From the IMG/VR virus record IMGVR_UViG_3300013094_000006, positions 1-41,797 of that record: a stretch of DNA of 41,797 nucleotides, one strand, 5' to 3'. Shown in pieces: positions 4,536-24,257 of this stretch. Every line of letters begins with the position of its first letter. Position 1 is the stretch's first letter. Position numbers and translations under genes: made by a program. The notes beneath the pieces are model-generated. The model saw only the letters and a program-made list of their open reading frames with translations. It did not search any database and was not told the origin of the DNA. This stretch comes from a virus.

Positions 4536-4563
4536 GGCTGCAATTAGAACGTGAGCGCCCCTC

Positions 4564-4580
4564 GGGAACCTCTCACTTTC
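4564..4580 (-). promoter_or_regulatory. Conserved leader element (GAAAGTGAGAGGTTCCC), copy 1
   Basis: On the minus strand the 17-mer follows directly from the stop codon of the upstream tail gene (TGA AAG...) and precedes the endolysin by ~30 bases. Exact match to the copies at 13688 and 17846. It contains GAGAGG, a passable Shine-Dalgarno, but here no start codon lies at the usual spacing, so it more likely marks a promoter, processing or regulatory site for the lysis block. Confidence 0.7.
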
Positions 4581-4842
4581 ATTGCATCGGTCCTTGGACC
4601 ACGGCGGTCCCCTTGGAATGGAGAATCAGCACCCGATCATTGACTGCCGGCGAGGAATAGGACTTGAGGGAGAGCATCGGAACGGGAGTCTGAGACCCGT
4701 CGATGAGCACCGTGAGCTTCGGCGTGCCCGAACCCACGGCGGTCACGGTCCCGTAGAGCATGGAGATCCCTGGGGCGGTGTGATCTGCGATCCGCTGATC
4801 GAGCGCCCACAAGAGACGCCTCATCTCGATCTTCTCGTTCAC
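4579..4842 (-). CDS. Baseplate-hub-associated small protein, OB-fold-like, 87 aa
   Basis: After a helical N-terminus, residues ~29-85 (YGTVTAVGSG..KLTVLIDGS..PVPMLS...VNDRVLILHSKGTAVVQG) have the five-strand pattern of OB-fold domains found in phage hub and spike proteins. It starts at ATG 4842, overlapping the stop of the large hub gene. It probably sits in the tail-tip complex. The fold call is by pattern only. Confidence 0.6.
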   Translation of the reverse strand: MNEKIEMRRLLWALDQRIADHTAPGISMLYGTVTAVGSGTPKLTVLIDGSQTPVPMLSLKSYSSPAVNDRVLILHSKGTAVVQGPMQ

Positions 4843-6332
4843 TAGAGCACCCCTCTCGTGAAGCCCTCGACCTCGCTGGCTGCATCGCTGGCTGCGTTTG
4901 AAGTCCAGTTGCCCCCACCGTCCAGCAAGATCCGACGTGTGAACCGTCGCCCGAAACCGTTCGGCCAGAGAAGCTGCAAGAGACCGGCCCCACCGAACCC
5001 ACCGAGGAGCCCGAACGCTGCGAGGCCGAGTGCGCCACCTCCGAGCGACGTGCTCGAGGCCCCGCTCGCTGAATAAGCGGTGTAAATCCCTGCGGTGTAG
5101 GCGCCGCTGCCGGTCGAAAGGGGCGTTGTCGGGGCGAAGGCGGCTACCGATGGCACGTTGTTGAGGTTCACCAGGGCGCTGATCTGCGAGCCCACGGGCA
5201 CGAGGGTCATCGACTCGGTGGTGGAGAAGTCCATGGGGATCGTCGCCTGCTGCAAGACGTAGGTGCCGTTGATGGCGGTGTTGGCATTATTGACGTAGAT
5301 CAGGTCGTAGGCGTCGAGGAAGGGCACCGGGATCGAGTTCAGGGTGATTTGCCTCGTGAGGCCAAGGATCTGCGGGAGGAGCGCCGCTGCCACGGCGTTG
5401 CATTGTGCAGGTGTGGTGGCGGTGGAGACCTGCACCGTCGTCGGTCGGAACCCGTAGGGGCCGAGGGCGTAGGTGGGGCTTGAGGGGTCCATGTCCCACG
5501 CCACGCCCGTCACCGGGGCGCTCGAGGCCGTGGTCGAGGTCACGATGACGCCGTTGTAGCCCGGTTGGTTCGTGACGGCGTGGGTGAGGTCGGTGGCGAT
5601 CTGCGTCTGGCCGTCTTGAATCGCGAGCTCGACGGGCGAGTTGGCCGTGGTCGGTGCCGTGCGCACGATGAGGGTGCCGTTGGCATCGAAGTAGGCGACC
5701 ATGCCGACCGCCGCTGCCATCGTCGTGATCGCCGTCCACGGCGAGGAGCCGGCGAGGAAGGTCTGCGCAGCGATGGTCATGGTCGACGCCTCGATGTTGG
5801 GATTGGTGATCCACGGGGCTGCGAGGTTGATGATGTCGTAGATGGCCTGCGTGATCGTGCTGCCGGCTGCGATGGTGACGGTATCGGGGAGTTCGTTGGC
5901 GGCGACCCGGCTCGAGCGGTCGTAGCCAGTGATCGTCAGCACGGGTCCTGGGGCCGAGTTCGTGCCGGTGCCGGTCACGGTGTCGCACTCCGTCACGCCG
6001 AACACCCCTTGGGGCCAGAGGTAGGCGTTGCCGTCCACCATGAACCCGACGCTGATCTTGACCTCGACGCCCGTGGGGGCGAACAGTCCCCCGCCCGCAT
6101 CGGTCGCCGCTAGGACGCCGTTTGGGTCAAGGCAGGTAAACGTGCAAGATCGCATGTTCGTCGCCGTGGTGTCGAGCGTGATCGAACCGCCCGTTGAGTT
6201 GCCACCACCGGCCCCTGTGCCCGCACCCGTGATGTAAGTGTCCAGCGTGCCGAGGTAGTTGCCGCCCTCGAGCACGTCAATGCGGTTGATGATCCTGACG
6301 GACTTGTTCGTGAAGCCTTGCGAGGCGGTCAC
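4842..6332 (-). CDS. Minor tail / baseplate hub protein (DUF5047-like), 496 aa
   Basis: GTG start at 6332 overlaps the upstream stop (GTGA). The protein begins with a beta-rich domain (VRIINRIDVLEGGNYLGTLDTYITG...SITLDTTATNMRSCTFTCLDPNG), continues with ITGYDRSSRVAANELPDTVTI and a LIVRTAPTTANSP strand, and ends in a Gly/Ala-rich segment (about residues 425-455) that looks like a flexible or membrane-active tail. The order matches the DUF5047 tail proteins of actinobacteriophages that follow the tape measure and distal tail protein, so a hub role is likely. Confidence 0.7.
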   Translation of the reverse strand: MTASQGFTNKSVRIINRIDVLEGGNYLGTLDTYITGAGTGAGGGNSTGGSITLDTTATNMRSCTFTCLDPNGVLAATDAGGGLFAPTGVEVKISVGFMVDGNAYLWPQGVFGVTECDTVTGTGTNSAPGPVLTITGYDRSSRVAANELPDTVTIAAGSTITQAIYDIINLAAPWITNPNIEASTMTIAAQTFLAGSSPWTAITTMAAAVGMVAYFDANGTLIVRTAPTTANSPVELAIQDGQTQIATDLTHAVTNQPGYNGVIVTSTTASSAPVTGVAWDMDPSSPTYALGPYGFRPTTVQVSTATTPAQCNAVAAALLPQILGLTRQITLNSIPVPFLDAYDLIYVNNANTAINGTYVLQQATIPMDFSTTESMTLVPVGSQISALVNLNNVPSVAAFAPTTPLSTGSGAYTAGIYTAYSASGASSTSLGGGALGLAAFGLLGGFGGAGLLQLLWPNGFGRRFTRRILLDGGGNWTSNAASDAASEVEGFTRGVL

Positions 6333-8638
6333 GGGGCTGCGACCGCCTGGGCGCTGATGGTGACGGTGTTCACGATGTCGCCGTTCGACGACCAGCCCCG
6401 AAGCGATGGCAAGTTCGTCTCGTCGTTCTTGGTGTCACCGAGACGGACGTAATACTGACCCATCGGGTAGGGACCTTGGAGGAGGAGCGTGTGCTGCGAG
6501 GCACGGAGCTGCTCGAAGGCTTGGAAGGAAGCGTTGGTCAGGAAGATCAGCGTGAACGAGATGACTGGCAGACCGAAGGAGTCACTCAGCACCACGGGGT
6601 CGGGGCGCCCCATGATCGGAACCACGTTCTGCCGCTCGGTGCTTGAGCGAGAGAAGGTGCCGGGAGCGAGGCTGACCGCCATGTTCATCGACGGGTTGAG
6701 CGGGTCCTTGAACCACCACCTCAGCGATGAGGTCGCCGTGACCGTGCTCGTTGCGATGGCCGATGCGACGACCATGCCGCCCACCGTGGCGACCACGATG
6801 GCCCGGAACTGGCGGGGGTAGCCGGGAGCGTGCTCAGCGTCGTAGAGCGTGATCGTCTGATTCGAGGCAGGCAGGGCGGTGTAAACGCCACCTCGCACGG
6901 GCCACCACGTCGTCCCACCGTCGTCCGAGTAGGTCACGACTGCGTAGGTGTTGCCGACCAGCCCGCCCGAGTCGTTGCCCGAGACCACCACCTGAGTCAC
7001 CGGGGCGTTGGTTGTCGAGTCGGTGGTCGCCGTGACGGTGAGCGAAGGGATCTGCGGGGCCGTGAACGAGGTCGTCCATGCGTAGGTCGTCCAGGTGCTC
7101 GCCAGACCGCCAGAGGAGACGATTTGGACGTAGGCGACGTACTGCGTACCGGCTTGGAGGTAGACGCTCGTGGTGTTGAGCGTCGTCGAATAGACGGTGG
7201 ACGACCCTACGACACCCGAATCATAGACACCCGATGTGACACCCGGCGTGAAGCCTCCTGCGGTCGTCTGAGCGAGCGTGTAGATGATCGCCCGATAGGA
7301 CGCCTGCGAGGTCGTCGGCACAAGCTTCGGAGTCCATGAGATCGTCGGCTGGGCGGTGGCTGTCGAGCTGAGTGAGACAGTCAGCGTGGGGATCGCTTCG
7401 GCGGTGAAGTAGTCATCGGGCGCCCACGGGCCAGATCCGGCTGCATCGTTCGTCATGACCGACCAATTCCAAACGGCGGGACCGCTCGGGGAGTCAGCCC
7501 ATGCGCCAGACGGGAAGGTGTAACTCGACACTCCGCTCGTGGTGGTCAGGTACGAGGTAGCGTTCCAAATGACGGAGGAGACGGCGGGCGTCTCGACGAC
7601 GGATGCGGCGTAGGTGTTCGTGGAGAACAGATTGCCGGAGGAGTCAAGGGCGATCTGAGCGGGCGACTGCAAACCAGAGACGTAGGTGGCGACCGCTCCC
7701 GAGGTGATTTTGTAAACGCACCCCGAGGAGGTGCTCAGCACGAACAGGTGCCCCGTCGAGTCGACGATGATCTGGCTAGGACCGCCCGTGATCGTGGCGT
7801 AGGTGGACGATGACCCTCCTGAGGTGACTTTGAGCACCTGCGTAGACCCGGAGTTGGCGACGTAGAGGTTGCCCGAAGCGTCAAAGGCGAGGCTTGACGG
7901 ATAGTTGAGGCCCGAGAGGAAGGTTGTCGCCGTCCCACCAGACGTCACCTTTGAGACGGTGTTGCCGATTCCATTTGCCACGTAGAGATTGCCGGAGGAG
8001 TCAAAGGCGAGCGCCACGGGGCCGTTCATGCCCGAGACGAACGTGCTGCTCGATCCACCCGTTGTGACCTTCGTGATCGTGCCAGCGGTTCCGTTCGCCA
8101 CGTAGAGGTTCCCCGACGCATCGAAGGCCATGGCAGATGGCGCCGTCACCGATGACGTGAAGATCGTCATGACGCCACCGGGCGTGATCTTGTAAACGAG
8201 GTTTCCCGAAACGTCTGCTGCGTAGAGGTTGCCCGAAGAGTCGAAGATGAGCGTTCCCACGCTCACGAAACCCGATGCAAACGTGGTGGCAGTCCCGGTC
8301 GGCGTGATCTTGGTAATGGTGCCGAGATTGGCGTTGCCTACGTAGGCGTTCCCCGAGGAGTCGATGGCGATGGACGACGGCAAGGGCGTGCCGTTGGAGT
8401 AGACGGCGCCCTGCCCGCTCCACGATCCCGTCGCTGCATTCCAATACTGATAGGTGCTCGAGGTCGAGAGCTTGCGCCGGAAGGCCCACCCGCTCATGGT
8501 CTGACCGGGCACGCCCGTCGAGAACACAAACTGGAACGTGGGCGGCGTGGACAGGTCGATGGTCGCTGCGTTCGCCGGCGACACCAGCGTGGGTGCGTAG
8601 GGGACTGCGTTCGGGATGCCGCCGACGACGAGAGCCAT
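6329..8638 (-). CDS. Minor tail protein with inserted NHL beta-propeller, 769 aa
   Basis: Residues ~14-80 resemble a fibronectin-III/Ig tail domain (VSPANAATIDLSTPPTFQFVF). Residues ~88-360 hold seven ~40-residue repeats built on 'LAFDSSGNLYVANG...ITKVTSGG', the NHL/SMP-30 blade pattern, enough for a closed beta-propeller. Further Ig/FN3-like repeats follow (ISWTPK..., VVVSGNDSGG...), then a C-terminal domain with FTLIFLTNASFQAFEQLRAS and LLLQGPYPMGQYYVRLGD that resembles distal-tail/hub domains. It starts two bases after the stop of the upstream fibre-like gene. The propeller is presumably a surface-binding insertion in an otherwise conserved tail-tip protein. Confidence 0.75.
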   Translation of the reverse strand: MALVVGGIPNAVPYAPTLVSPANAATIDLSTPPTFQFVFSTGVPGQTMSGWAFRRKLSTSSTYQYWNAATGSWSGQGAVYSNGTPLPSSIAIDSSGNAYVGNANLGTITKITPTGTATTFASGFVSVGTLIFDSSGNLYAADVSGNLVYKITPGGVMTIFTSSVTAPSAMAFDASGNLYVANGTAGTITKVTTGGSSSTFVSGMNGPVALAFDSSGNLYVANGIGNTVSKVTSGGTATTFLSGLNYPSSLAFDASGNLYVANSGSTQVLKVTSGGSSSTYATITGGPSQIIVDSTGHLFVLSTSSGCVYKITSGAVATYVSGLQSPAQIALDSSGNLFSTNTYAASVVETPAVSSVIWNATSYLTTTSGVSSYTFPSGAWADSPSGPAVWNWSVMTNDAAGSGPWAPDDYFTAEAIPTLTVSLSSTATAQPTISWTPKLVPTTSQASYRAIIYTLAQTTAGGFTPGVTSGVYDSGVVGSSTVYSTTLNTTSVYLQAGTQYVAYVQIVSSGGLASTWTTYAWTTSFTAPQIPSLTVTATTDSTTNAPVTQVVVSGNDSGGLVGNTYAVVTYSDDGGTTWWPVRGGVYTALPASNQTITLYDAEHAPGYPRQFRAIVVATVGGMVVASAIATSTVTATSSLRWWFKDPLNPSMNMAVSLAPGTFSRSSTERQNVVPIMGRPDPVVLSDSFGLPVISFTLIFLTNASFQAFEQLRASQHTLLLQGPYPMGQYYVRLGDTKNDETNLPSLRGWSSNGDIVNTVTISAQAVAAP

Positions 8639-8640
8639 GA

Positions 8641-9375
8641 CTAGGCGCTCACCATCGTCACGGCCAAGAAGGTGCCGGCAACGATGGTCGTGCAGGACCC
8701 CGCCGTGGCGCCGTTGTTCGGGTTGATTGACATGCCGATGGTGTCGCCCACGGCGAAGTTCATGACGTCCGCGAGCGAGATGGTGAGGCCGAGAGGAGTG
8801 CTTCCCTCGTAGTTGTACGCCTGGGGGCTCGTGGTGACGCTCCCGGTGCGAGGCAAGAACAGGGTGGTTCCGAGTGGACCGCCCGAGAGCTCGACCTGAC
8901 CCGTGACGAGGTAGGTGCCCGCCACGGCGCAGACGATTCGATCCAATCCACCGTTGATCGTCCAGGCTCCCGAAGGGTTGGGGAAGCCGGAGGATGCGGT
9001 GAGGCCGCTGATTCGAGTCGTGGTGCCGGTGCCGTTGACGAACGTGAGGGTCTGAGCGCCCGAGGGCTGCACTCGAGCCGATGCGGTGACGAGGCCCGAG
9101 TAGTACGGAACCACCTCAACGGTGAGGGTCGAAGCCACGCCGCCGACCGTGAACGAGAGGTCATAAAGCCCCGGTGCTGCGTAGAACGAGAGGTTGCCGA
9201 GGGTATCGGTGTTCACCGGGTTCGTGGCTGCGGTGCCGCCCGTCTGATCGGTGTAGAGGCTCGCTGCGGTGGTGGTCCCATGGAGGTAGACCGTGACGGG
9301 GGTGCTCGGAGCAGGCACGCCGTTGGAGCCGAGAATGGCGTTCGGGCCGTAGAGACCGGCGATAGGTACGGACAT
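8641..9375 (-). CDS. Minor tail protein with C1q/TNF-like C-terminal domain, 244 aa
   Basis: The N-terminal ~90 residues form a beta-domain common in phage tail proteins (VTVYLHGTTTAASLYTDQTGG...NPVNTDTLGNLSFYAAPGLYDL). After a linker, residues ~100-244 show a jelly-roll pattern (WTINGGLDRIVCAVAGTYLVTGQVELSG...VGDTIGMSINPN...TFLAVTMVSA) like C1q/TNF-type trimers that bind sugars or proteins. It sits just after the tape measure. Start ATG 9375 is preceded by GAAAGGAAC. Confidence 0.65.
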   Translation of the reverse strand: MSVPIAGLYGPNAILGSNGVPAPSTPVTVYLHGTTTAASLYTDQTGGTAATNPVNTDTLGNLSFYAAPGLYDLSFTVGGVASTLTVEVVPYYSGLVTASARVQPSGAQTLTFVNGTGTTTRISGLTASSGFPNPSGAWTINGGLDRIVCAVAGTYLVTGQVELSGGPLGTTLFLPRTGSVTTSPQAYNYEGSTPLGLTISLADVMNFAVGDTIGMSINPNNGATAGSCTTIVAGTFLAVTMVSA

Positions 9376-9385
9376 GAGAGGTTCC
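9376..9385 (+). repeat. Inverted partial copy of the leader element (GAGAGGTTCC)
   Basis: The 10-base core GAGAGGTTCC of the leader element lies here on the plus strand, opposite in sense to the gene it precedes; read on the minus strand it supplies GGAACCTCTC just before the ATG at 9375. It may be chance or a decayed, inverted copy. Confidence 0.4.
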
Positions 9386-9390
9386 TTTCG

Positions 9391-12207
9391 TTATCGCTGA
9401 CCCTGAGCGAGGGCCATGCGGAGAGCGGGGATGGCAGCCTGGACGCCGGCAGTAGCGGCAGCGGCGACGGCGCCGGGGTTGGACGAGTGACGGGCATCGA
9501 CGTTGATTTGGACGGCGTGGCGCACGGCTGAGGCACCGAAGATCGCTCCACCACCGACCGCCTGACCCGACCCGCCGACCTTGGTGGTGGCGAGCGACTG
9601 CCCGACCGATGCCGCTGCGTGAATAGCGCCACCCGTAATGGCGTTGAACGCCGAGGTGAACGGTGAGGTGATTATTCCGAACAAGCCGGCGAGGGGCCCC
9701 GTAATGTCGCCCGCGAGCCCGGAGAACAGGTTCTTGATCGGGTTGACGATGTGCTGCTTGATCCAGTCGACGACCGGCTCGAGGCCGTGCCAGATCTTCG
9801 TCACATCGTTCACGGCGTCGGTGACATGGATCTTGATCTGGTTCCTGAGCCAATCGAACCCACGCTCAATCGGGTGGATCACGTCACGGTCGATCCAATG
9901 CCACGCCGTCATGAGCGCGAAGTAGAACCCGTCCCACGCATTCTCAATGTCATGGACGACCCCCATGAATCGGTCATAGAGCCAGACGAACCCGTGAACC
10001 ATCGGGTGAATCACGTTGTTGTCAATGGCTTCCCAGGCGTTGATCGCGTCCTTCTTGATGGTGGGCCATGCGAGCTTCCACTCCTTGACGAGCCACTCGA
10101 CCTTCTGCACGACCCAATCGAGGCCCTTGATGAGGCCGAGAAGGACCACGTCACCGATGAACAGGAGCGCCCCGATCAGCGGAGACGCCGCCACGAACAA
10201 ATTGAGCATGTTGACACCGAGGTCGGCCATCGGCTTGATGAGCGGGCCAATGGCCTTGAAGATCAACGAAAACGCCCTGCCAATCCCGTTGAAAGTGTCG
10301 ATCATGTCCTTGATGTTGTCTTTGGTGATGTGGAGGTGATCGAAAAAATGGGCGAGGTGACCCGTCAGCCGGTCGAAAAACGGACCAACGGCGTCCTTGG
10401 CAATGGGGCCGAACACCTGCAAGAAGCCGGTGAACGCCTTGCCGAGGTTGATCGTGGCCGTGCCGAACTCGCTCATGATGGGGCCGACGTCTTGGCTCAT
10501 CTGACTCATGAAAGACTTGAAATTGCCCGATTCCATCCACGAGTCGATCTGACCGAAGAAGCCACCCATGGCGCCGTCGACCTGATTCACGAACTGCCCG
10601 ATGATGGGAGCCGCCTGCGTGAGGGCGCTGGCGAACCCAGTAATGATCCCGTAGACAGCCGGCATGGACTTGTCGAAGATGCTCTTGAACGAGGAGATCA
10701 GCGGGTCGATGGCTTGCCACGCCTGCTGAGCGGCGGGGCTCATGCCTGCGAGCTGAGCGTTGTACGCCTGCTGCGCCTGAGCCGCCTGCTGCGAGCCGGC
10801 ACCGTACTGGAGAATGGCCGATGCGAGGTTCTGCTGAGCGGTGTAGGCCGCTGACAAGTTCTTGAACGCATCCACGACCTGCACCCCGAAGATCAGCAGA
10901 CCACCCGTACCAATCGCGAGGCCCGCCGTCATGCCGCCTGCCGCCGTTCCGATGGCGAGAATGCCTGCCGTAATCACGGGGAGCATGACGATGACGCCCT
11001 GCATGGCTCCCGAGAGGCCCGAGAAGCCCGAGGCGAGAGAGGAGAGGCCACTCTGCCCCGCACCGCCGATGGAGGAGAGGAGCTGAGTAATCATCCCGCC
11101 CGAGCCGCCCTCGCCGCTGAGCATCTTGAGAGCGTGCGTCACGTCGAAGCCGCCCGCTGAGAGGAGGGATTTGCCGAGCGACGAGAACGGATCATGGCCG
11201 CTGGCTTTCATCGACTTCACGAAATCGAGGAGACCTGCCGGCATCTGATCCGCTGCGCCGAAGAACCCCGAGCCCGAGTTGAAGAACATGCCTGGATCAA
11301 AAGAAAAGGCATTGCTCAATCGCCCCATGAGGCTCGAGAACACCCCGCCGCCAGAACCGCCACCGATGCTGCTCTTGGCGTCGATAATGCCACTTCCGAG
11401 CCAGTTGCGAAGATCTCCGCTCGGCAGACGTACATCATTGAGCGTTGGGCCGAGAACATCGCCCATCCCGAGAGCGCCGACCGGCATCCGATAGGGGTCC
11501 CAATTCACACCGGCGCCCACGAGCGCCTGGAAGATCCCTGCACGCTCGAGAGCCGAACCACCGCCGCCAGATCCAAGCGCCCTCTGATTCAACAACGACC
11601 GGAATGGGTCGTAGAGGTTCCAACCTGCGCCGGTGTCGTAGAAGTTCCAGCCGAGATTGCCACCACCGAGACTCGACAGGTCGATGATGGACGCCGGCAA
11701 GAAGCCGGAAGCACCAGAACCGAGGGCACCCGGTTCTGATGCGAACGCATCCCAAAACGCTCGTCGCAACGAGTCCCGCATGGCAGCGCCGTCCTGAGCA
11801 AACCGACTGATGGCCGACTGTGCATCGCCCTTGCTGTAGCCAAGCCCCTGCAAGGCGCTCGTGAGCTCGTTGGGGAGCGTGCCGCCACCGAGCAGCTTCT
11901 CGATGAGGCTCCCTGAGTTCCCCGAGTAGCCAATGTCGTCGAGGATGGCCTTTGCGATGGCCGCTTCCTCAGCGAGGCGAGTCAGGTCAATGTCGACGTC
12001 GACCTTGCGCTTGCGAGTGGCCCGAGAGATCGTCTCGTCGGCAATCGTGGCGTCCTCGTCGAGGCGCACGTTGTCCATGCGGGCGTCGACCTTGATCGTG
12101 CGACCGTCGAGTTCGTCGGCCTTGGCTCGAGCCTTGTCGATCCCTTCGTCGAACTCGGCACGGTCGAGCTTGAGGTGGGCGGTGAGTGAACCGGCGTCGA
12201 AGCCCAT
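9391..12207 (-). CDS. Tape measure protein, 938 aa
   Basis: It is the longest gene in the window, directly behind the frameshifted chaperone pair, as in lambda-like tails. The N-terminus (LKLDRAEFDEGIDKARAKADELDG...IKVDARMDNVRLDED) is the typical alpha-helical tape measure opening; a glycine-rich middle (residues ~215-400) is followed by hydrophobic segments at ~405-465 and amphipathic helices with repeated W-x2-V/I-K-x-V patterns. It sets tail length and is thought to be ejected through the membrane. ATG at 12207 shares one base with the chaperone stop. Confidence 0.93.
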   Translation of the reverse strand: MGFDAGSLTAHLKLDRAEFDEGIDKARAKADELDGRTIKVDARMDNVRLDEDATIADETISRATRKRKVDVDIDLTRLAEEAAIAKAILDDIGYSGNSGSLIEKLLGGGTLPNELTSALQGLGYSKGDAQSAISRFAQDGAAMRDSLRRAFWDAFASEPGALGSGASGFLPASIIDLSSLGGGNLGWNFYDTGAGWNLYDPFRSLLNQRALGSGGGGSALERAGIFQALVGAGVNWDPYRMPVGALGMGDVLGPTLNDVRLPSGDLRNWLGSGIIDAKSSIGGGSGGGVFSSLMGRLSNAFSFDPGMFFNSGSGFFGAADQMPAGLLDFVKSMKASGHDPFSSLGKSLLSAGGFDVTHALKMLSGEGGSGGMITQLLSSIGGAGQSGLSSLASGFSGLSGAMQGVIVMLPVITAGILAIGTAAGGMTAGLAIGTGGLLIFGVQVVDAFKNLSAAYTAQQNLASAILQYGAGSQQAAQAQQAYNAQLAGMSPAAQQAWQAIDPLISSFKSIFDKSMPAVYGIITGFASALTQAAPIIGQFVNQVDGAMGGFFGQIDSWMESGNFKSFMSQMSQDVGPIMSEFGTATINLGKAFTGFLQVFGPIAKDAVGPFFDRLTGHLAHFFDHLHITKDNIKDMIDTFNGIGRAFSLIFKAIGPLIKPMADLGVNMLNLFVAASPLIGALLFIGDVVLLGLIKGLDWVVQKVEWLVKEWKLAWPTIKKDAINAWEAIDNNVIHPMVHGFVWLYDRFMGVVHDIENAWDGFYFALMTAWHWIDRDVIHPIERGFDWLRNQIKIHVTDAVNDVTKIWHGLEPVVDWIKQHIVNPIKNLFSGLAGDITGPLAGLFGIITSPFTSAFNAITGGAIHAAASVGQSLATTKVGGSGQAVGGGAIFGASAVRHAVQINVDARHSSNPGAVAAAATAGVQAAIPALRMALAQGQR

Positions 12208-13401: not shown

Positions 13402-13404
13402 TTC

Positions 13405-13686
13405 TTACCTCCGCTCGAGCTCAACGCCCGCTGACTTAGCGACGTCGATGATTTGATCCACGAGATTCGCTGGAACCGCCACGCCCTCTGTCGTGATCGG
13501 TGGGACACCCTCGATTGAGACGTCAATCGAGTGGGTCGGGAACGGCCCGACGAGAACCAGCTCCACTTCCCCGGAGGTGGGTGCAGACACGACGGGGGCG
13601 GCAACGACCGAGGGAGTCGAGTTCTCGGGTTGCTCGGGAGTCAGGGTCTCGTCAGGCATCGACTGGACTGTACGAGGGACCCTCAT
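13405..13686 (-). CDS. Small neck or tail protein, unknown, 93 aa
   Basis: ATG at 13686 lies six bases after GAGAGG of the conserved leader element, the best-supported start; an internal ATG at 13659 lacks a ribosome-binding site. The N-terminal half is Pro/Glu/Thr-rich and flexible; the C-terminal half (VELVLVGPFPTHSIDVSIEGVPPITTEGVAVPANLVDQIIDVAKSAGV) resembles short phage proteins of unknown function found near tail tube genes. Confidence 0.6.
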   Translation of the reverse strand: MRVPRTVQSMPDETLTPEQPENSTPSVVAAPVVSAPTSGEVELVLVGPFPTHSIDVSIEGVPPITTEGVAVPANLVDQIIDVAKSAGVELERR

Positions 13687-13687
13687 C

Positions 13688-13704
13688 GGGAACCTCTCAC
13701 TTTC
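13688..13704 (-). promoter_or_regulatory. Conserved leader element, copy 2 (with in-register start codon)
   Basis: Exact 17-mer GAAAGTGAGAGGTTCCC on the minus strand. It overlaps the stop codon of the upstream gene (TTC TGA AAG) and is followed after one base by ATGAGG, the start of the 93-aa gene. Here GAGAGG serves as Shine-Dalgarno. Confidence 0.75.
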
Positions 13705-14071
13705 AGAACGGGGTGACGAACGAGTAGGAAGCGAAGTAGGTGGTGCGCTGATCCACGTCCCTGAGCAGGTACGCCGGGGGTCCCGTGGCGCTCATCGCTT
13801 GGAGCACGAACGTCGATCCCATGGTGATCCCGCCGACCAGCTTGAGGAGCGAATGGACGCTCAGGGCCAACGCCTCAGCCGCCTCATCGGTGGCCGCTCG
13901 GCACCGAACGTGGACGTACTGATTGTCGAAGGTGGCGTCCATGACCGGCGCTCCCCCACTGGCCGAAAGGACCACGACGGCATTGGGGGTGTCGGGCATC
14001 CAGTTCACAAGGACGTTGGAGATCCCCTTTCCCGTGAGCCACGTTGCAACGCTGTCGAGTGCTACTGCCAT
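13703..14071 (-). CDS. Tail terminator / tail completion-like protein, 122 aa
   Basis: Starts MAVALDSVATWLTGKG at ATG 14071, sharing a base with the upstream stop (TAATG). Contains FDNQYVHVRCRAATDEAAEALALSVHSLLKLVGG and SATGPPAYLLRDVDQRTTYFASYSFV, the alpha-beta pattern of phage tail terminator (minor tail 'DUF3168/gpU-like') proteins, and is in the right place between connector and tail tube. It would cap the tail and join it to the head. Confidence 0.7.
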   Translation of the reverse strand: MAVALDSVATWLTGKGISNVLVNWMPDTPNAVVVLSASGGAPVMDATFDNQYVHVRCRAATDEAAEALALSVHSLLKLVGGITMGSTFVLQAMSATGPPAYLLRDVDQRTTYFASYSFVTPF

Positions 14072-14912: not shown

Positions 14913-14914
14913 GG

Positions 14915-15777: not shown

Positions 15778-15795
15778 CTCTCGGTCCTCCTTGGA

Positions 15796-17139: not shown

Positions 17140-17159
17140 TGGGGACTACTCCTTGTGAG

Positions 17160-17777
17160 TTAGACGTTGATGTTGAGCTTGGCGAGTTCCCGCTTCACCG
17201 TCTGAGCGTCGGCGCTGCGGAAGTCAGTCGATGACGAGCTGCCACCCGAGGCGTCGGGAGCCGTGAGCGAAGCGCCGAACCATTCCGGCGACTCGTTCTT
17301 GATTCCCGAGACCACTTCGGACACGCCTTCGATCTCTCCACCGTCAGACTTGATGAGGCTCTTGTCGGCCAACCGCAACGCTGCGGCCAGTCGCTCGGTC
17401 TTGATCCCTGCGTCCTTGAGTGCAAGCTCGATCTTCGAGTTCGTGAGGGCTTCGAGGGCGCCGGAAGCGATCCGGTCCTTCTCCTCCTCAAGAGTCTTGA
17501 TCTGCTCCTGCAAACGCTCGGTCTCAGACTTCTTGGCGTCCTCAACTTCCTTGGCAACCCTGAGGGCTTCCTTGGCGGCATCGAGATCCGAAACGCCCAA
17601 CTGCTCGAGCAGGGCCTTCTCAGCAGCAGATCGACCTTCGGTGCGGGCTTGGCCTGCGATCCGGTCAACCTCCTCCTGGGAGATCCCCGCCGTGGCGGGT
17701 GGAGTCGAAGAAGCCGGTGGGGGCGTCTGCCCCGGTGTCGGCTCCGATGACGGGTCTTGCGTTCCGGTGTCTGACAT
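17160..17777 (-). CDS. Capsid scaffolding protein, 205 aa
   Basis: Pro/Thr/Ser-rich disordered N-terminus, then a long charged coiled coil (residues ~65-115, VAKEVEDAKKSETERLQEQIKTLEEEKDRIASGALEALTN), then IELALKDAGIKTERLAAALRLAD and a C-terminal helix (TVKRELAKLNINV). This is the GP20/DUF4355-like scaffold layout, and the capsid gene follows directly. AGAGGA precedes the ATG. Confidence 0.82.
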   Translation of the reverse strand: MSDTGTQDPSSEPTPGQTPPPASSTPPATAGISQEEVDRIAGQARTEGRSAAEKALLEQLGVSDLDAAKEALRVAKEVEDAKKSETERLQEQIKTLEEEKDRIASGALEALTNSKIELALKDAGIKTERLAAALRLADKSLIKSDGGEIEGVSEVVSGIKNESPEWFGASLTAPDASGGSSSSTDFRSADAQTVKRELAKLNINV

Positions 17778-17816
17778 GAATCCTCTTTCTTCCCCTCGGT
17801 TCCCCGCCGAGTACGG

Positions 17817-17987
17817 TCAAGCGGAGGGTACGATCCCGACCTCGTGGGAACCTCTCACTTTCGGGCATGGATGGTGTTCGGCGTCAGCGAGGTCGACGAT
17901 GAGGGACGAGGGAACGAGGCTCGAGAATGAGCCTTGAAACACCTCGAATCGCACTCCGCATCGCTCGCACAGGGCGAGCAGGATCAT
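17817..17987 (-). CDS. Small zinc-binding protein, 56 aa
   Basis: ATG at 17987 abuts the stop of the phosphoesterase gene (TAGATG). The product starts MILLALCERCGVRFEVF and contains AEHHPCPKVRG: Cys7-x2-Cys10 and His38-x2-Cys41 could bind one zinc. It is too short for a plain ORF scan. The conserved leader element (17846-17862) is embedded in its codons for KVRGS. Real expression is likely from context but unproven. Confidence 0.55.
   Translation of the reverse strand: MILLALCERCGVRFEVFQGSFSSLVPSSLIVDLADAEHHPCPKVRGSHEVGIVPSA
17846..17862 (-). promoter_or_regulatory. Conserved leader element, copy 3
   Basis: Exact 17-mer GAAAGTGAGAGGTTCCC on the minus strand, ~70 bases upstream of the scaffold start and inside the 3' end of the small zinc protein gene. 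No start codon follows at Shine-Dalgarno spacing. Conservation inside a coding frame argues for a DNA- or RNA-level role, for example a promoter for scaffold and capsid. Confidence 0.65.
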
Positions 17988-19013
17988 CTAGGCGAGCCAC
18001 ACCTTCCTGGTGCTCACCACGCGCCCACGGTCGGGATCGACGATGTGGAATCGCTGGCTCGGGATGGCGGTTGCAGCGAGGTTGTCTCGTGCATAGCGGT
18101 TGTCGGACTCCGTCGAGCCGTTGAAGTAGACGCTGCCGAGACCATTCGGCAGGCTCATCTCCATGTGGTTGTGGTAATGGTGAACGTAGGCGTCACGGAA
18201 GCTCCACGGGTAGGCGCCCGACTGCCACTTGGCAACGTGGTTGGCGATGGTGGCGGGGCTGGCATAGCCGTTGCGACCCACTTCGTCGCCATGGATGACC
18301 ACGGCCCGGTAGTTCCCGATCTCGAGGCGCTGAATGTCCTCGGGGCAGTCCTCCCACGTCAGACGATCCTCGCCGGCGAGCAGTTGGCGAGCGAGCTCGA
18401 AGCACATGCGGTCGATGTTGTCGGCTTTGGGCACGGCTGACCGCTTGGAACCGATTCGACCGTGGTTGCCCCACTCAGCGGTGACCACGACCTCGTCGTA
18501 GATGCTCAGGGCATAACGGACCACGTCAACCAGGAGCCGGGAGACCGTGACGTACTGCCCGAAGATCGTTTGGTCGATCTCGAAGGGCTGCGTCGGGAAA
18601 TTGAACAGTCCCTCGACCATGTCGCCACCGAAAATGATGTTGCAGGACCGAATCGGGCGAGCGGATCGCTCCGACTCGGTGATCTCGAAGGCCAGTCGGC
18701 AGTAGTCCATGACCCGTTCGACCATGACCTGCGAGTTGTAGGTCGTCGTCTCCTTGGACCCCTGCCAGTCTCCGAGATCCCATAGGGCAACGTGCTCGTC
18801 GCCCATGCGCTTGTCACGCTTGGGAGCCTTGGTGACGGGGATGGGGCCGAGGGCGACGATGGCGTCCTTGACGCCCCGAGCCACGGCCTTGTCGAAGCGG
18901 TCGAGCTTGTCCTTTGCCTGTCTCAGTTGGCGAGACAGGTTGCCAATCTGCTTCTCAAGCTCAATTTCGAGGTCGGCCTCCTCAAAGGCGCCTTTGCTCA
19001 GCCCTTGCTGCAT
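17988..19013 (-). CDS. Metallophosphoesterase-family protein in the head operon, ~341 aa
   Basis: After a coiled-coil N-terminus (LEIELEKQIGNLSRQLRQAKDKLDRFDKA) come the metal-binding motifs of calcineurin-like phosphoesterases: DLGDWQG, IIFGGDMVEG, AEWGNHGR, VVIHGDEV and HHYHNHME. The first motif has D-L-G-D rather than the usual D-x-H. Such enzymes cut phosphodiesters (nucleic acid or small molecules). ATG at 19013 is preferred; an in-frame GTG lies at 19019. It overlaps the upstream gene by ~16 bp. Placement between the MuF-like and scaffold genes suggests action on DNA at packaging or entry, but that is inference. Confidence 0.75.
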   Translation of the reverse strand: MQQGLSKGAFEEADLEIELEKQIGNLSRQLRQAKDKLDRFDKAVARGVKDAIVALGPIPVTKAPKRDKRMGDEHVALWDLGDWQGSKETTTYNSQVMVERVMDYCRLAFEITESERSARPIRSCNIIFGGDMVEGLFNFPTQPFEIDQTIFGQYVTVSRLLVDVVRYALSIYDEVVVTAEWGNHGRIGSKRSAVPKADNIDRMCFELARQLLAGEDRLTWEDCPEDIQRLEIGNYRAVVIHGDEVGRNGYASPATIANHVAKWQSGAYPWSFRDAYVHHYHNHMEMSLPNGLGSVYFNGSTESDNRYARDNLAATAIPSQRFHIVDPDRGRVVSTRKVWLA

Positions 19014-19252
19014 TGGCACGATCCGTTCCGGTGAGCTGCGATGGAGTTTGCGCTGCGCTTGAACCCGAGCACCTCGCTCAGCACCTTGGCGATGGCGGGG
19101 TTGCTCACGGCCTTGTCAGCGAGGGCATCGTCGAGCACCTCGACGTCCTCCTTCGATAGGGACTCGACCACGGTGATGTACCAACACTGGCGAGAGTTCA
19201 TGTTGGAGTTGCTCAAAAATGCACCCTTGGACAACTGGCTCTTTGCGGCCAT
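18998..19252 (-). CDS. Small HTH-like protein with Cys-rich C-terminus, 84 aa
   Basis: ATG at 19252 follows GGAGG at good spacing. The core 'LSKEDVEVLDDALADKAVSNPAIAKVLSEVLGFKRSANSIAAHRNGSCQCSKG' has a helix-turn-helix look and ends in the HR-x-G-x-C-x-C motif seen in small phage proteins that choose sites by spacing. Its N-terminus shares LSKGAF with that of the following phosphoesterase. Function unknown; possibly a DNA-binding accessory to packaging. Confidence 0.6.
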   Translation of the reverse strand: MAAKSQLSKGAFLSNSNMNSRQCWYITVVESLSKEDVEVLDDALADKAVSNPAIAKVLSEVLGFKRSANSIAAHRNGSCQCSKG

Positions 19253-19272
19253 CTGGCCTCCTTCGGTCGCCC

Positions 19273-19899
19273 CTACGCTGAGGGGAGTAGCGGGGCGCCG
19301 GGAATGGCGGGACCTGCGGAGCATCGACAGTGAACGTGGACGCTTCCAGGCCAGCCAATCGCCGGCATCTTGTCGGCTCGGAAGTTCTTGCCGTGCGCAT
19401 CGCGACATTCGGCAGTCGTCCGGTCGTCAAGAACTGCACGCCAGCCGAGGAGACCCTCGGGCTTGCGATCATCGTTGAGCATCGCGGCCATGTCCTGACC
19501 CGCCGCCGCCCTCATGCGGCGCTCCTCTGCTCGAATCTGCATCTCGAAGTAGCGAGCCTCGAGCTTCTTGGCATCCTCGAAGAACGTGTCGCCCTTCTCT
19601 GCCGCTTCACGCAGGCGCTCTACGGCGGCGAGGGTGTAGAGCGAGAGCCACGCCGATGCGTTCTTGCGCTCGATGGCTTGCGCCGGCCCGTCAGGGACGC
19701 CGACCGACTCGATGTTCGGTCCACCGGCCACCATCGTCGAGACGAAGTCGAGGATGGCTCGAGGGACGGCGGGGATCAGGCCAAGAAGAATCTCTGCGAT
19801 CTGCACGGAGGCGATGAACCCGATGGCCCCGGTGGTGAACAGGGCGACGAGTGCGAGTGCGACCTCGCGATTCTTCTTGTTCTGATCCGATTGGGTCAC
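19273..19899 (-). CDS. MuF-like minor head protein, 208 aa
   Basis: GTG at 19899 overlaps the portal stop. An N-terminal hydrophobic segment (~residues 13-50) is followed by a helical region; the C-terminus carries GWRAVLDDRTTAECRDAHGKNF and HVHCRC, the conserved signature of Mu gpF-like head morphogenesis domains. Located directly after the portal as usual. Shorter than typical MuF proteins (250-400 aa), so only the C-terminal domain seems retained. It may be a few copies inside the head and ejected with DNA. Confidence 0.75.
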   Translation of the reverse strand: MTQSDQNKKNREVALALVALFTTGAIGFIASVQIAEILLGLIPAVPRAILDFVSTMVAGGPNIESVGVPDGPAQAIERKNASAWLSLYTLAAVERLREAAEKGDTFFEDAKKLEARYFEMQIRAEERRMRAAAGQDMAAMLNDDRKPEGLLGWRAVLDDRTTAECRDAHGKNFRADKMPAIGWPGSVHVHCRCSAGPAIPGAPLLPSA

Positions 19900-21404
19900 A
19901 GATTCGTGACCCCGACGTTGCCGGTGTCCTCGCCGTCTGCGGCAAGGTCAGGAGCGCCGGCGAGCAGATCTTGGATCGACTTCGGCAGGTGACCGATGCC
20001 TTGCGCCTGCCCCGATCCGGGCGGGAACATGCCCTCTTGCATGATGGCTTCGACCTCAGCCTCGACCTCCTCGGGGGTCCAGGTCTTGTGAATGGTCTTG
20101 ACCAGCGTTTCGGTCGATGCGGCGGCACCCTGACGGAGCCACAGCGCCTCCTGCGCACCGTCGAGGCCATCGTCGGGCAGACCGTCGCCAAGTTGGATGC
20201 TCGGGCGGTAGTCGGCCACGTTGTAGCCGCCCTCCTGCAAGGCGAGCGCCGTGGCGAACGCCCAGCCGAGGGCTTGAATCGCCATGTGCTCTTTCGCTGA
20301 GCGAGTGAGCAGCGTGCGGAGTTGGCTGAGCTTCATGGCATAGCCCGACACGGCTCGAGTCACGTTGGCGGTCTGACCCTGCAACCCCCACGTCAGCGGC
20401 GAATAGCCGGCGCAGGTCACGAGGAGCTGCGTCAGGTGGTCGATCCAATAGACGTGCTCTTGGCTGTAGAGGTGCGGTTGGACGGTCTCGATGGTCTGCA
20501 ACGGCGACTGGCCGAGCGGGAGCGCCATGCGAGCGCCGCCCGTGAGGATGTACCCGTCGATCTTGAGCTGCCCTCGGTCGTCGGCAAGCGAGCGGTCGAC
20601 GAAGGTGCGAGGAATCGCCTTGCGCCCGCGGTCGAGCATGAGGCTCTCTGCTTCGTTGATCGAATCGAAGATCGGGCCGAGGCCGAACAGGTCAGACTCG
20701 CCTCCGGGCACGTTCTCCCACGGAATCAGCGTCGGGCGGTCGAGGCCGGTGTCCTCGTGCGCCGGGTAGTTGGCGAACTCGTCGACTGCCGAGAGCGGGA
20801 CCTCCTTGCCGAGCTTCGCCTTGCCACCCTTGTAAAGGTGACGGTCGACGGCGCCCTTGGTGTGCTCCTCGAGCAGGCGGTAGATCGTGGTCTCATCGTC
20901 GTCGACCTTTTTCTCGATCACGACGATGCCACCGGCGAAGAAGTGGTCGTGGCGCTTGTCCCAAATGATCTGGTCCTCGGGGATGAGCGTCAAGAGCGGC
21001 GTGTTGCCCCCAATGTCCGGGTCACGGATGATTCGAATGCCGATGCGCCCCTCGGCGGCGACCTTGGTGCCACCACGGATGGCGAACGCCCCGAAGTCGT
21101 TGACGTCGATGAGGTCGGCCAACTGGCTCTCGTAGAGGTTCGATGAGACCTTCGGGGTCTCGGAGAACAGGAGGGCCGCGGAGAATCGGCACAATTCGCG
21201 GGGCCATGCGACGGGCGTGTAGATCTCGGTCTTGTGCTCGTCGACCATGATGTTCGGGTTGGCCCGGATCATCTCTGAGCGATCATTGCGATACCGGCGT
21301 CGGTAGTCAGCGATTGCCGCCCATTCCTTCTTGACGTTCTTCGGGGGCCAGGACTCCTCCTCCCCGAAACGGCGCCTCATGCGCTCCAAGATGCTCATAG
21401 CCAT
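19896..21404 (-). CDS. Portal protein, 502 aa
   Basis: Sits between large terminase and MuF. Contains WAAIADYRRRYRNDRSEMIRANPNIMVDEHKTEIYTPVAWPRELCRFSAALLFSETP and the stem region YWIDHLTQLLVTCAGYSPLTWGLQGQ...ANVTRAVSGYAMKLSQLRTLLTRSAKEHMA, typical of SPP1 gp6-like portals. Forms the dodecameric DNA gate of the capsid. ATG overlaps the terminase stop (TAATG). Length is normal for the family. Confidence 0.88.
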   Translation of the reverse strand: MAMSILERMRRRFGEEESWPPKNVKKEWAAIADYRRRYRNDRSEMIRANPNIMVDEHKTEIYTPVAWPRELCRFSAALLFSETPKVSSNLYESQLADLIDVNDFGAFAIRGGTKVAAEGRIGIRIIRDPDIGGNTPLLTLIPEDQIIWDKRHDHFFAGGIVVIEKKVDDDETTIYRLLEEHTKGAVDRHLYKGGKAKLGKEVPLSAVDEFANYPAHEDTGLDRPTLIPWENVPGGESDLFGLGPIFDSINEAESLMLDRGRKAIPRTFVDRSLADDRGQLKIDGYILTGGARMALPLGQSPLQTIETVQPHLYSQEHVYWIDHLTQLLVTCAGYSPLTWGLQGQTANVTRAVSGYAMKLSQLRTLLTRSAKEHMAIQALGWAFATALALQEGGYNVADYRPSIQLGDGLPDDGLDGAQEALWLRQGAAASTETLVKTIHKTWTPEEVEAEVEAIMQEGMFPPGSGQAQGIGHLPKSIQDLLAGAPDLAADGEDTGNVGVTNL

Positions 21405-22666
21405 TACGCAACCTCTCTCAGTAGTTCGTCACCGAGCAGGTGCGCTCGGCTTGCGTAGAACGCGGTGGCGGCGTCAACCGAGTGGTCGTGCCCCTTGGCC
21501 GGCTTCATGTCGTTCTTCGGGTCGTAGTGATACGCCTTGGAGTCGATGATGAGCTGACGGACGTTGTCGGTGAGCACCTCACGCCCCTGCTCGAGGAAGA
21601 ACGAGCGAGCCATGATGCCGGGACGCTTGTAGGCGGCGAACGGGACCGGCTGCACGATGGTCGGAGCGCCCGACCGCTCAAGGATGCGAGCGAGTGTCAC
21701 GTTCTCTGAGGCACCAGCGGCGTCGGCGTAGATCGTCGACACCCGGAGGTCCTTGCAGATCTGAGCGATGCGCTCGCAGCGGTCGTTGAGCTCGATGCGC
21801 TCATAGATGTGCTCGTCGACCCAGGCGATTCGACCGTCCACGAGTTCGGTGCAGACCTCGAACGCCGTGACGTTCCAACCCCAGTCAAGACCGGCTTCGA
21901 AGTTCGGGAGCTGCGGGAGCACGAAGTCGCGACGGGCTTCGTAGGCGTCGTCGATCTTGTGAGCATCGAACACAGCGCCGGCGAAGGCCAGGGGCGAGGC
22001 CATGTATTCCTGCTCAAAGATCTCCTTCGGGAGGGCTCGCTGCGCCTCGTTGATCTCCTCTTGGGGGATGTAGGGGTTGTCGCCGGTGACAAACTTGAAC
22101 CCGGCCCACTCCTCGTTGGCGGGGTCCATGGCGAAGCGCCACAGGTCGTAGTACCAATTCTCACCGTTGAAGGTAGAGATCAGGAAGGCAGATCCGTTGC
22201 GGTCCGACAGCGCCGGTCGCAACGCTTGGGTCCACACGTCCTGGGCGAGGAACGCAGCCTCGTCGACCACGACCAAGTCGAGACCCTCGCCTCGAAGGTT
22301 GTCCCATCGCTCACCGGACTTGAAGGCGATGCGCCCGCCGTTGGAGAGGTAGATCTCACCGAGGGTGCGGTTGGCCTCACGATGCTTCTTCGGGATCGCC
22401 TTCTCGACCATGCGGAAGGCGTTGCGGCTCTGGTTGTGGCTCGGAGCGATCCACCAGACGTTGCCGTTGGGCTTGGAAGCGGCGGCGATGATGCACATGG
22501 CGGTGCCGAGGAGGGTCTTGCCGAACCGTCGACCGCACGCAGCGACCTTGAATCGGGCCGGCGACTCGAAGATCTCCCGCTGAGCGGGGTGCATGTCGAG
22601 CTCGAAGCGCCAGGTCCCGCCACCGATCTCGTCCATTCGGGCCTCACCCGAGGCTCGAGGGCTCAC
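21404..22666 (-). CDS. terL: Terminase large subunit, 420 aa
   Basis: ATPase: Walker A GRRFGKT (45-51) and Walker B DLVVVDEAAF (Asp135, Glu136). Nuclease domain: GLDWGWN (Asp261), TIYADAAG (Asp314-315) and HDHSVDAATAF (Asp398), the three acidic sites of RNase H-like terminase nucleases. It pumps and cuts DNA at the portal. GTG at 22666 overlaps the previous stop (GTGA). Length is slightly short but complete. Confidence 0.94.
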   Translation of the reverse strand: MSPRASGEARMDEIGGGTWRFELDMHPAQREIFESPARFKVAACGRRFGKTLLGTAMCIIAAASKPNGNVWWIAPSHNQSRNAFRMVEKAIPKKHREANRTLGEIYLSNGGRIAFKSGERWDNLRGEGLDLVVVDEAAFLAQDVWTQALRPALSDRNGSAFLISTFNGENWYYDLWRFAMDPANEEWAGFKFVTGDNPYIPQEEINEAQRALPKEIFEQEYMASPLAFAGAVFDAHKIDDAYEARRDFVLPQLPNFEAGLDWGWNVTAFEVCTELVDGRIAWVDEHIYERIELNDRCERIAQICKDLRVSTIYADAAGASENVTLARILERSGAPTIVQPVPFAAYKRPGIMARSFFLEQGREVLTDNVRQLIIDSKAYHYDPKNDMKPAKGHDHSVDAATAFYASRAHLLGDELLREVA

Positions 22667-22866
22667 AGGGCGACCTCAGCCTGCGCAGCGTCTTGGAGGA
22701 GCCGTTTGGTCGATTCGGCGGTCTGATCGGAGGGGCGAAGGTAGGCGAAACGCCGGCGACCGTCCTTGCCGATGACCTCCACGACGAGGCAGCAGGTCCC
22801 AACGACCATGTCTGGCCCCATGTGGGACATGACGGAGTCCCGAGCGAGCTTCTCGACGATCTTCAT
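22663..22866 (-). CDS. Unknown small protein between terminase genes, 67 aa
   Basis: ATG at 22866 overlaps the small terminase stop (ATGA), and its own stop overlaps the large terminase start. The product is an alpha/beta mix (MSHMGPDMVVGTCCLVVEVIGKDGRRRFAYLRPSDQTAESTKRLLQDAA) with a Cys-Cys pair. The tight coupling suggests a packaging-related role; I do not recognise it. Confidence 0.6.
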   Translation of the reverse strand: MKIVEKLARDSVMSHMGPDMVVGTCCLVVEVIGKDGRRRFAYLRPSDQTAESTKRLLQDAAQAEVAL

Positions 22867-23339
22867 GCGGCACGCACCCCCACAGCGACGTCATCTCGAC
22901 CACCAATGCGAACGACGACCTCGGTGGTCTTGGCCCCACCGCCGCCGCCAACGGGCTCGATCCCTCGAAGGCGAGCGATCTCCTTCACCGCATCGACGCC
23001 GACCTTGAGGTACTGAGGGCCGACCTGGGCCGTGGTGCCCTTGACGGCCATGTACGACTGCAACGCTTCGTCGGTGATCGTCTCAAGGCGCCCGATGAGG
23101 CGCTCCATCTCGATCTCGACGTCCTCGGTGCGGTCACGACGGGCCAGGGCCTCGCTCTTGATCCAGCGGTCGACGGTCGACGGATGAACGTCGAGGTGCT
23201 TTGCGATCTTGTTCTTCGAGTGCCCGACCATGTGGAGGAACCACGCTTCGGCGTGCAGCTCGTCCTCGGTCATGTCATCGCGCCCCGGCAAGACGCCGAC
23301 GAGGTCGGTCACTTTCACCGGCAGCGGCTTGGCGCCCAT
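22863..23339 (-). CDS. Terminase small subunit, 158 aa
   Basis: Helix-turn-helix at residues ~35-60 (FLHMVGHSKNKIAKHLDVHPSTVDRWIKSE), then a long helical oligomerisation region (VEIEMERLIGRLETITDEALQSYM...GPQYLKVGVDAVKEIARLRG) and a Gly-rich linker before a short beta tail. This domain order and its place before the large subunit fit a small terminase that recognises the packaging site. Confidence 0.78.
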   Translation of the reverse strand: MGAKPLPVKVTDLVGVLPGRDDMTEDELHAEAWFLHMVGHSKNKIAKHLDVHPSTVDRWIKSEALARRDRTEDVEIEMERLIGRLETITDEALQSYMAVKGTTAQVGPQYLKVGVDAVKEIARLRGIEPVGGGGGAKTTEVVVRIGGRDDVAVGVRAA

Positions 23340-23455
23340 TAGCGCCCCTTTGCCGGCTTGTGAGCGGCGTTCTGCACTCGAATGGACTTCTTGACCATCG
23401 AGAGGGACTTGGCGGCTGACTTCCGAGCGCCGAAGGGGTCAGGGCGCTTCGCCAT
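23339..23455 (-). CDS. Small basic protein, 38 aa
   Basis: Frame MAKRPDPFGARKSAAKSLSM...PAKGR, running from ATG 23455 to TAA 23339-23341, which shares a base with the small terminase start. Eleven Lys/Arg residues in 38. It sits in a chain of overlapping genes, which supports expression. Could be a DNA-binding peptide; function unknown. Confidence 0.5.
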   Translation of the reverse strand: MAKRPDPFGARKSAAKSLSMVKKSIRVQNAAHKPAKGR

Positions 23456-23613
23456 CAGTGGGTCGGCTTCCCTGCCTTGGCACGCTTGACGACGGCGGCA
23501 TCAATGGCCTTGTCCTCCCACGACCCGCAAGCGATCCCATGCTTGTGATCCCACGCGTGATCGGCGGTCATGGCCTTCTTGACTGCGCTGGCCTTGGATT
23601 TGGCGGTTCCCAT
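23455..23613 (-). CDS. Small basic protein, 52 aa, first gene of the late operon
   Basis: ATG at 23613; MGTAKSKASAVKKAMTADHAWDHKHGIACGSWEDKAIDAAVVKRAKAG... with a His/Trp-rich centre. Its stop overlaps the start of the 38-aa gene. There is no good Shine-Dalgarno directly before the ATG; the leader element at 23642-23658 lies ~28 bases upstream. As the first late gene it may be regulatory. Not recognised. Confidence 0.5.
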   Translation of the reverse strand: MGTAKSKASAVKKAMTADHAWDHKHGIACGSWEDKAIDAAVVKRAKAGKPTH

Positions 23614-23641
23614 GGCGCCGAGGGTACGAACAGGGGTGCTC

Positions 23642-23658
23642 AGGAACCTCTCACTTTC
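23642..23658 (-). promoter_or_regulatory. Conserved leader element, copy 4 (one mismatch)
   Basis: GAAAGTGAGAGGTTCCT on the minus strand (last base differs), upstream of the first late gene. Together with copy 5 on the opposite strand it flanks a ~51-base spacer (23659-23709), giving a divergent arrangement at the border of late and early regions. Confidence 0.7.
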
Positions 23659-23709
23659 ACCCTGTCATCTCAAACTAAGATAGGCCCGAAACATGCCATC
23701 TGAAATGAT

Positions 23710-23726
23710 GAACGTGAGAGGTTCCC
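23710..23726 (+). promoter_or_regulatory. Conserved leader element, copy 5 (plus strand, one mismatch)
   Basis: GAACGTGAGAGGTTCCC on the plus strand. As in copy 2 it is followed after one base by ATGAGG, but the frame stops after five codons (MRSCD). It faces away from copy 4 and into the non-coding region. Confidence 0.7.
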
Positions 23727-23754
23727 AATGAGGTCGTGTGATTAGGTCACTCCT

Positions 23755-23776
23755 ACGCCCGCATAGCGACGGGCGT
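23755..23776 (+). other. Hairpin after the five-codon leader frame
   Basis: Seven-base arms ACGCCCG and CGGGCGT with an eight-base loop, ten bases after the stop of the MRSCD frame. No T-run follows, so it is not a standard intrinsic terminator; an attenuator or processing structure is possible. Confidence 0.5.
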
Positions 23777-24209: not shown

Positions 24210-24233
24210 CCGGGGAAGTGCACACTTCCCCGG
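24210..24233. other. Perfect 11-bp-arm hairpin / palindrome
   Basis: CCGGGGAAGTG and CACTTCCCCGG are separated by two bases. It could be a terminator stem, a protein-binding palindrome or part of an origin. No T-run follows. Confidence 0.6.
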
Positions 24234-24257
24234 AGCACCTCGAGCAGCTCGGGGAGG

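Follow-up and report, generated by a model that had tools for sequence, protein, structure and literature searches.

A repeated 17-base element as the probable upstream recognition site of late promoters in a group of uncultivated phages

A 17-base sequence that recurs at the heads of gene blocks in a phage genome raises the question of whether it acts in the DNA, as part of a promoter or operator, or in the messenger RNA, as a leader. The DNA analysed here (the window), a virus record, comprises 41,797 bases and carries an 84-bp terminal repeat, from which a complete, circular genome seems probable. PHROGs assign genes for terminase, portal, capsid and tail, which occupy the minus strand from 23.6 down to 4.8 kb, while the early genes are situated on the plus strand from 24.5 kb. 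The presence of a WhiB gene together with a high GC content suggests an actinobacterial host, and the nearest named phage, as judged by the capsid protein, is Streptomyces phage Kromp (36%). Megablast of the window against GenBank phages gave no match, capsid and terminase alignments detected no prophage in GTDB genomes, and an Rfam scan of the window returned no RNA family.

The phage encodes two integrases and an XRE-type protein and is therefore probably temperate. The two tyrosine integrase genes are adjacent and on the same strand (38883-40043 and 40236-41057), the second having a 53% homologue in the relative G002, and the gap ahead of the integrase gene carries TCGCGGCCAAT repeats (38659-38681 and 38831-38875), which are possibly arm-type or repressor sites. 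An exonuclease-like ORF (phrog_284; 17988-19019) is found within the head operon, between a MuF-like gene and the scaffold gene; in the relative G011 a 55% homologue is located elsewhere (30661-31650), and the other relatives compared yielded none.

A preliminary description of this DNA had reported three exact and two single-mismatch copies of the element at the heads of functional blocks, and a scan of the window confirmed all five positions (Table 1). No sixth copy was found in the window when up to three mismatches were allowed; the five copies compare with 0.10 expected, and none of 100 dinucleotide-preserving shuffles reached five. The reported sense orientation relative to the downstream genes holds for the four minus-strand copies; the plus-strand copy at 23710 has no gene start nearby. 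The copies at 4564 and 13688 do, as had been observed, overlap upstream TGA stop codons, the upstream ORFs terminating 2 nt within the element. ATGAGG is indeed present after two copies (13688 and 23710), yet was judged incidental: the frame opened by its ATG at 23710 is just 5 codons long, and for the 13688 copy the in-frame ATG at 13659 is better suited to the promoter geometry and to the tail gene of the relatives. As to the functional blocks, terminase, portal, capsid and tail genes are assigned by PHROGs and the scaffold gene by position and homology, but the lysis block is recognised mainly through relatives in which the gene at that place encodes an NlpC/P60, Amidase_2 or PG_binding_1 protein, the window's own gene there having no Pfam or PHROG match.

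Table 1. Positions of the repeated element, the associated hexamers and genes of possible regulatory relevance in the window.
Feature	Position	Strand	Remarks
Upstream promoter element, lysis block (putative)	4564-4580	-	Exact copy
-10 hexamer TCTAAT	4543-4548	-	ATG of 176-aa gene (4005-4535) 7 nt on, at 4535; predicted leaderless
Upstream promoter element, tail block (putative)	13688-13704	-	Exact copy; overlaps stop of ORF 13703-14071
-10 hexamer TACAGT	13667-13672	-	ATG of 84-aa tail-region gene at 13659; predicted leaderless
Upstream promoter element, scaffold/capsid block (putative)	17846-17862	-	Exact copy
-10 hexamer TACCCT	17825-17830	-	Predicted +1 about 17817; scaffold gene start 17777, leadered
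Upstream promoter element, late operon start (putative)	23642-23658	-	One mismatch
-10 hexamer TACCCT	23621-23626	-	ATG of 52-aa first late gene (23455-23613) 7 nt on; predicted leaderless
Divergent element copy	23710-23726	+	One mismatch; divergent copies also in G003, G005, G006
Hexamer TTAGGT at -10 place of divergent copy	23742-23747	+	Weak; no gene start nearby
Ordinary sigma-70-type promoter, early block	24413-24441	+	TTGACA-17-CATACT; contrast to element sites
188-aa Cys-rich protein	30076-30642	-	Homologues lie immediately after WhiB in G010 and G011; may be a partner
WhiB-like protein with C-terminal Cys/His-rich extension	31870-32403	-	PF02467, E 2.1e-17; candidate activator

A second conserved part, absent from the preliminary description, is a T----T hexamer of -10 type which lies exactly 15 nt past the 17-mer in all five copies and conforms to TAnnnT in three. 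At three copies a gene-opening ATG is located exactly 7 nt after the hexamer; with +1 placed at this ATG the hexamer would occupy -13 to -8 and the 17-mer about -45 to -29, the distance from the 3' end of the element to the start codon being 28 nt at these leaderless-type sites. The product of the 84-aa tail-region gene has a G002 homologue that aligns from residue 1, and the 52-aa first late gene has homologues in G004, G011, G013 and G015. The scaffold gene, in turn, has a predicted leader of about 40 nt. A sigma-70 promoter with a consensus -35 was rejected for the element sites since they carry no TTGACA-like hexamer 16–18 nt upstream of the -10, whereas the early promoter at 24413 has one. 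The output of the divergent copy is not assignable to a gene because no gene start is close by, and it is possibly an RNA. Positions 23748-24490, which separate the late promoter from the early genes, form a long stretch without clear genes that the divergent element would transcribe; such a stretch, repeat-rich in G004, is also present in L152 (about 600-1240).

Relatives were collected from IMG/VR by capsid, portal and terminase searches (about 50–67% protein identity), and the element was located at homologous places in G001, G002, G003, G005, G006 and G007. The form GAAAsTGTCGGGTTC is found in L021, G001, G002, G005 and G006 at the late start, scaffold, tail or lysis place, as far as each fragment reaches, while G003 carries GAAACGGGCGGGTTG at the same kinds of places, and in both sets of records the -10 lies 17 nt from this 15-mer. 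The pattern was encountered at 17 places over the searched records, compared to 0 for a reversed-pattern control. Divergent copies opposite the late start are retained in G003, G005 and G006, the first position of their hexamer being C. A Cys-containing ORF of approximately 95 aa, alike in two phages (L151, about 2572-2862, and L025, about 540-827, minus strand), has its start 9 nt beyond the -10-like hexamer that accompanies the divergent element.

Other relatives bear other sequences in the same places. G004 has GTGCCCGCTT-N18-TACNGT, or a sequence near to it, at the same four places, and G011 has the 16-mer GATTGCCCCCTTCCCT in four exact copies positioned exactly at the late start, scaffold, tail and lysis places, a further copy with a single mismatch preceding a minor tail gene. 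The forms in G010, G012, G013, G014 and G015 are CTAGTTCAACCCACAC, CTAAGTTA, CTGAAACCTTCCCT, GTACCCCCTTCCCT and GATGCCCCCTTCCCT, respectively. The element therefore varies in sequence between lineages and agrees at nearly all sites within one phage, an agreement that is imperfect in that the G003 late start and the G010 sites 3050 and 2283 differ at 2–3 positions. Within a supported clade, G003 (GAAACGGGCGGGTTG) and its sister G005 (GAAAGTGTCGGGTTC; support 100/100 in the terminase tree) have elements that differ at four positions, and the scaffold and tail sites of G003 both bear the G003 form. No recognisable element was found in the distant relative G016, no late-start copy in G010, and no visible element in the outgroup Kromp. 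Searches of IMG/VR with the exact 16-mer gave ten matches, all regarded as chance as they lack the -10 geometry, and the pattern GAAANTGTCGGGTTC gave more than 120 stretches, mostly chance, which when filtered for T----T at +17 yielded the true relatives and some chance matches. In several relatives tRNA genes (Trp or Met) adjoin the scaffold promoter, either just upstream (L197 15463-15537 in G011; L202 5253-5325 in G015) or just downstream (L021 2167-2239; L023 5176-5248); none is present in the window.

The condition proposed to refute the preliminary reading, a lack of conservation in relatives, does not hold: although the sequence is not kept throughout the group of phages, the position and orientation of the element, its spacing to the -10 and its within-phage agreement are. 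Likewise, the preliminary reading of a conserved leader element stands as regards a conserved, oriented control element that heads functional blocks, but the term leader finds no support.

Of 43 pooled sites, 39 have NAnnnT at the fixed spacing, compared to 2.0% in neighbouring registers, the spacing between element and -10 having been selected after inspection once per element type (14 for one G011 site) and thereafter holding across the type. Most sites have a -10 of TAnnnT type. None of the 43 has a TTGACA match of at least 4/6 at a spacer of 16–18, the mean match being 1.60 versus 2.29 at random positions. A start codon is present 6–8 nt past the -10 at 20 of the 43 sites, where 1.3 would be expected, and this arrangement differs by block: it is seen at 8/9 tail, 6/9 late and 4/5 lysis sites (plus a single tentative lysis site, 1/1), and at 0/13 scaffold sites. 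These pooled counts, some of which derive from near-copies of each other, are not fully independent because scaffold DNA is common to G001 and G005 and because a filter that uses the -10 supplied two of the G001 loci.

The element itself, its spacing, the -10, the lack of TTGACA, the start positions, the conserved places, the within-phage agreement and the switching between lineages, all of which are seen directly in the sequence, indicate that the 17-mer is very probably the upstream recognition element of phage-specific late promoters served by a phage-encoded activator and the principal sigma factor of the host. Under this model, the RNA polymerase of the host, carrying the principal sigma factor, would read the -10 hexamer, which is of sigma-A-like type (mostly TAnnnT), and the element at about -45 to -29 would stand in for the absent -35 box, where the proposed activator would bind and recruit or redirect sigma. 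One regulator would in this manner start four late blocks (the late start with terminase, scaffold/capsid, tail and lysis) in addition to the divergent transcript. For three of the five sites the predicted first transcribed base is the A of the start codon, giving leaderless mRNAs, while the scaffold transcript would keep its leader; promoter activity and these start sites are what we infer from the geometry. That the sites change together by lineage would be explained if the binder is encoded by the phage, the recognition sequence being replaced in concert across the sites of one phage during evolution; the phage origin of the binder and its activating nature are both probable. Promoters of a phage-encoded sigma factor were dismissed, as searches of the window, G010 and G011 disclosed no gene with sigma-70 regions 2 and 4 (region 2 gave no match and region 4 none over the cut-off).

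Three other readings were weighed against the activator model. Since the sites are asymmetric, oriented and repeated and the phage is probably temperate (two integrases and an XRE-type protein), they might be repressor operators that silence late genes in the prophage, in the manner of the L5-type stoperators of cluster A; however, they lie at one fixed distance from the -10 and replace the -35 rather than being added to a complete promoter, and all are situated at late blocks or at the divergent start with no copies elsewhere, so that this is very unlikely. Promoters of an alternative host sigma factor, operating with no phage regulator, would be consistent with a novel sequence in the -35 region at fixed spacing, as this could reflect sigma specificity, but they are most unlikely given the concerted change between sister phages while the -10 remains of TAnnnT type in most sites. 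It is extremely improbable that the element acts in mRNA as a translation leader or start-associated sequence: although it occurs near gene starts and its GAGAGG resembles a Shine-Dalgarno sequence, its distance to the start codon is 28 nt, variants including GTGCCCGCTT and CTAAGTTA lack Shine-Dalgarno character, and, as it lies upstream of the inferred transcription start, it should be absent from the mRNA.

The preliminary description had likened the element to the start-associated sequences (SAS) of cluster K mycobacteriophages while recognising that the sequence differs. The difference is borne out and the kinship is not. SAS (GGGATAGGAGCCC) abuts start codons, being within a few nt of them, and is found solely in the non-structural half of the genome (PMC3203893), whereas the present element is unrelated in sequence and serves structural and lysis genes from a greater distance. 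What is shared is a repeated, oriented element near gene starts, and the consensus of the extended form (ESAS) also differs between subclusters (PMC3203893). Microbacterium phages of clusters EC and EI similarly carry an asymmetric repeated motif, of unknown function, 21–30 bp upstream of starts (PMC7302621), but in cluster EC it is upstream of the ribosome-binding site, mostly of non-structural genes, and in phages that encode sigma factors (PMC7302621).

A shared upstream site at a fixed distance from the -10, at several late operon heads and with no consensus -35, is the arrangement of activator-dependent late promoters, and the layout appears comparable to that of Mu C and T4 MotA promoters. 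The Mu late promoters lys, I, P and mom are activated by protein C, whose site is beside or overlaps a non-consensus -35 while the -10 is used by host RNA polymerase (PMC4461284); as proposed here, one phage activator serves several late promoters at lysis, head and tail blocks. The sites are unrelated and the host is different, and leaderless starts and lineage-to-lineage site replacement are features of the present group. In T4, a phage-specific box likewise replaces the -35 and is paired with a normal -10 (PMC6755090), but the MotA box is centred near -30 and serves middle genes, whereas the present element is centred near -37 and serves late ones. None of the ORFs scanned with Pfam matched a MotA, AsiA or Mu C-type domain, and no description of late promoters with such a layout and lineage-specific elements was found in the searchable open-access literature.

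With regard to the binder, the early regions of three genomes (the window, G010 and G011) were compared, and the only non-structural proteins common to them are a RuvB-like protein, the WhiB-like protein and the 188-aa Cys-rich protein. The WhiB-like homologues in G010 and G011 span the C-terminal extension, cysteines C19, C40, C43 and C49 are invariant in the three phages, and the G[V/I]WGG motif region reads GVWGL in the window, GIWGG in G010 and GVWAG in G011. The G011 protein (L197 5010-5810) has an additional C-terminal stretch that by eye resembles an HNH-type domain.

As a sub-hypothesis of the activator model, the WhiB-like protein may be the activator, as binder or essential partner, its Fe-S domain sitting on sigma region 4 and its C-terminal Cys/His extension reading the adjacent element. 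It is the leading candidate because WhiB1, WhiB3 and WhiB7 bind region 4 of sigma-A and the DNA that WhiB7 reads is immediately upstream of the -35 (PMC6282962, PMC10245118), the place of the element, and the finding of no sigma factor in the three genomes is also in its favour. We nevertheless hold this identification only tentatively: the comparison is limited to three genomes, actinophages commonly carry WhiB genes (492 of more than 1700 mycobacteriophages; PMC8612146), the phage WhiB that has been studied (TM4) is a repressor of host whiB2, and the AlphaFold model is too poor to judge DNA binding (pLDDT 50). WhiB7 promoters keep a -35 and AT-rich DNA that is read by an AT-hook, in contrast to the present sites, which have no -35 and several of whose elements are GC-rich. 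WhiB alone does not predict such promoters because Kromp has a WhiB and no visible element. It is appreciably possible, if somewhat short of an even chance, that the binder is another phage protein with no recognised domain or a short HTH, such as the 112-aa HTH protein (29808-30146) or the 188-aa protein. A large number of the early genes lack a Pfam match, the HTH of the 112-aa protein shows weak similarity to sigma region 4 and the 188-aa protein is conserved beside WhiB, but the former has no homologue in any relative compared and the latter no known DNA-binding domain.

Based on the activator model, it is possible to formulate a sequence-only rule for late promoters in uncultivated probable actinophages, which predicts exact transcript starts and leaderless mRNAs. 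The architecture of the regulon is constant while its recognition sequence exists in at least seven or eight forms, which constitutes a natural series for the co-change of a regulator and its sites. More speculatively, and on balance rather doubtfully, a phage WhiB-like protein with an acquired C-terminal reading domain may activate late genes sequence-specifically by redirecting the principal sigma factor of the host to promoters without a -35, domain and promoters switching specificity together; if so, the reading domain and the late promoters would form an insulated and fast-evolving regulatory code. The role of phage-encoded WhiB proteins is largely enigmatic in the literature (PMC8612146), and the present finding makes it testable.
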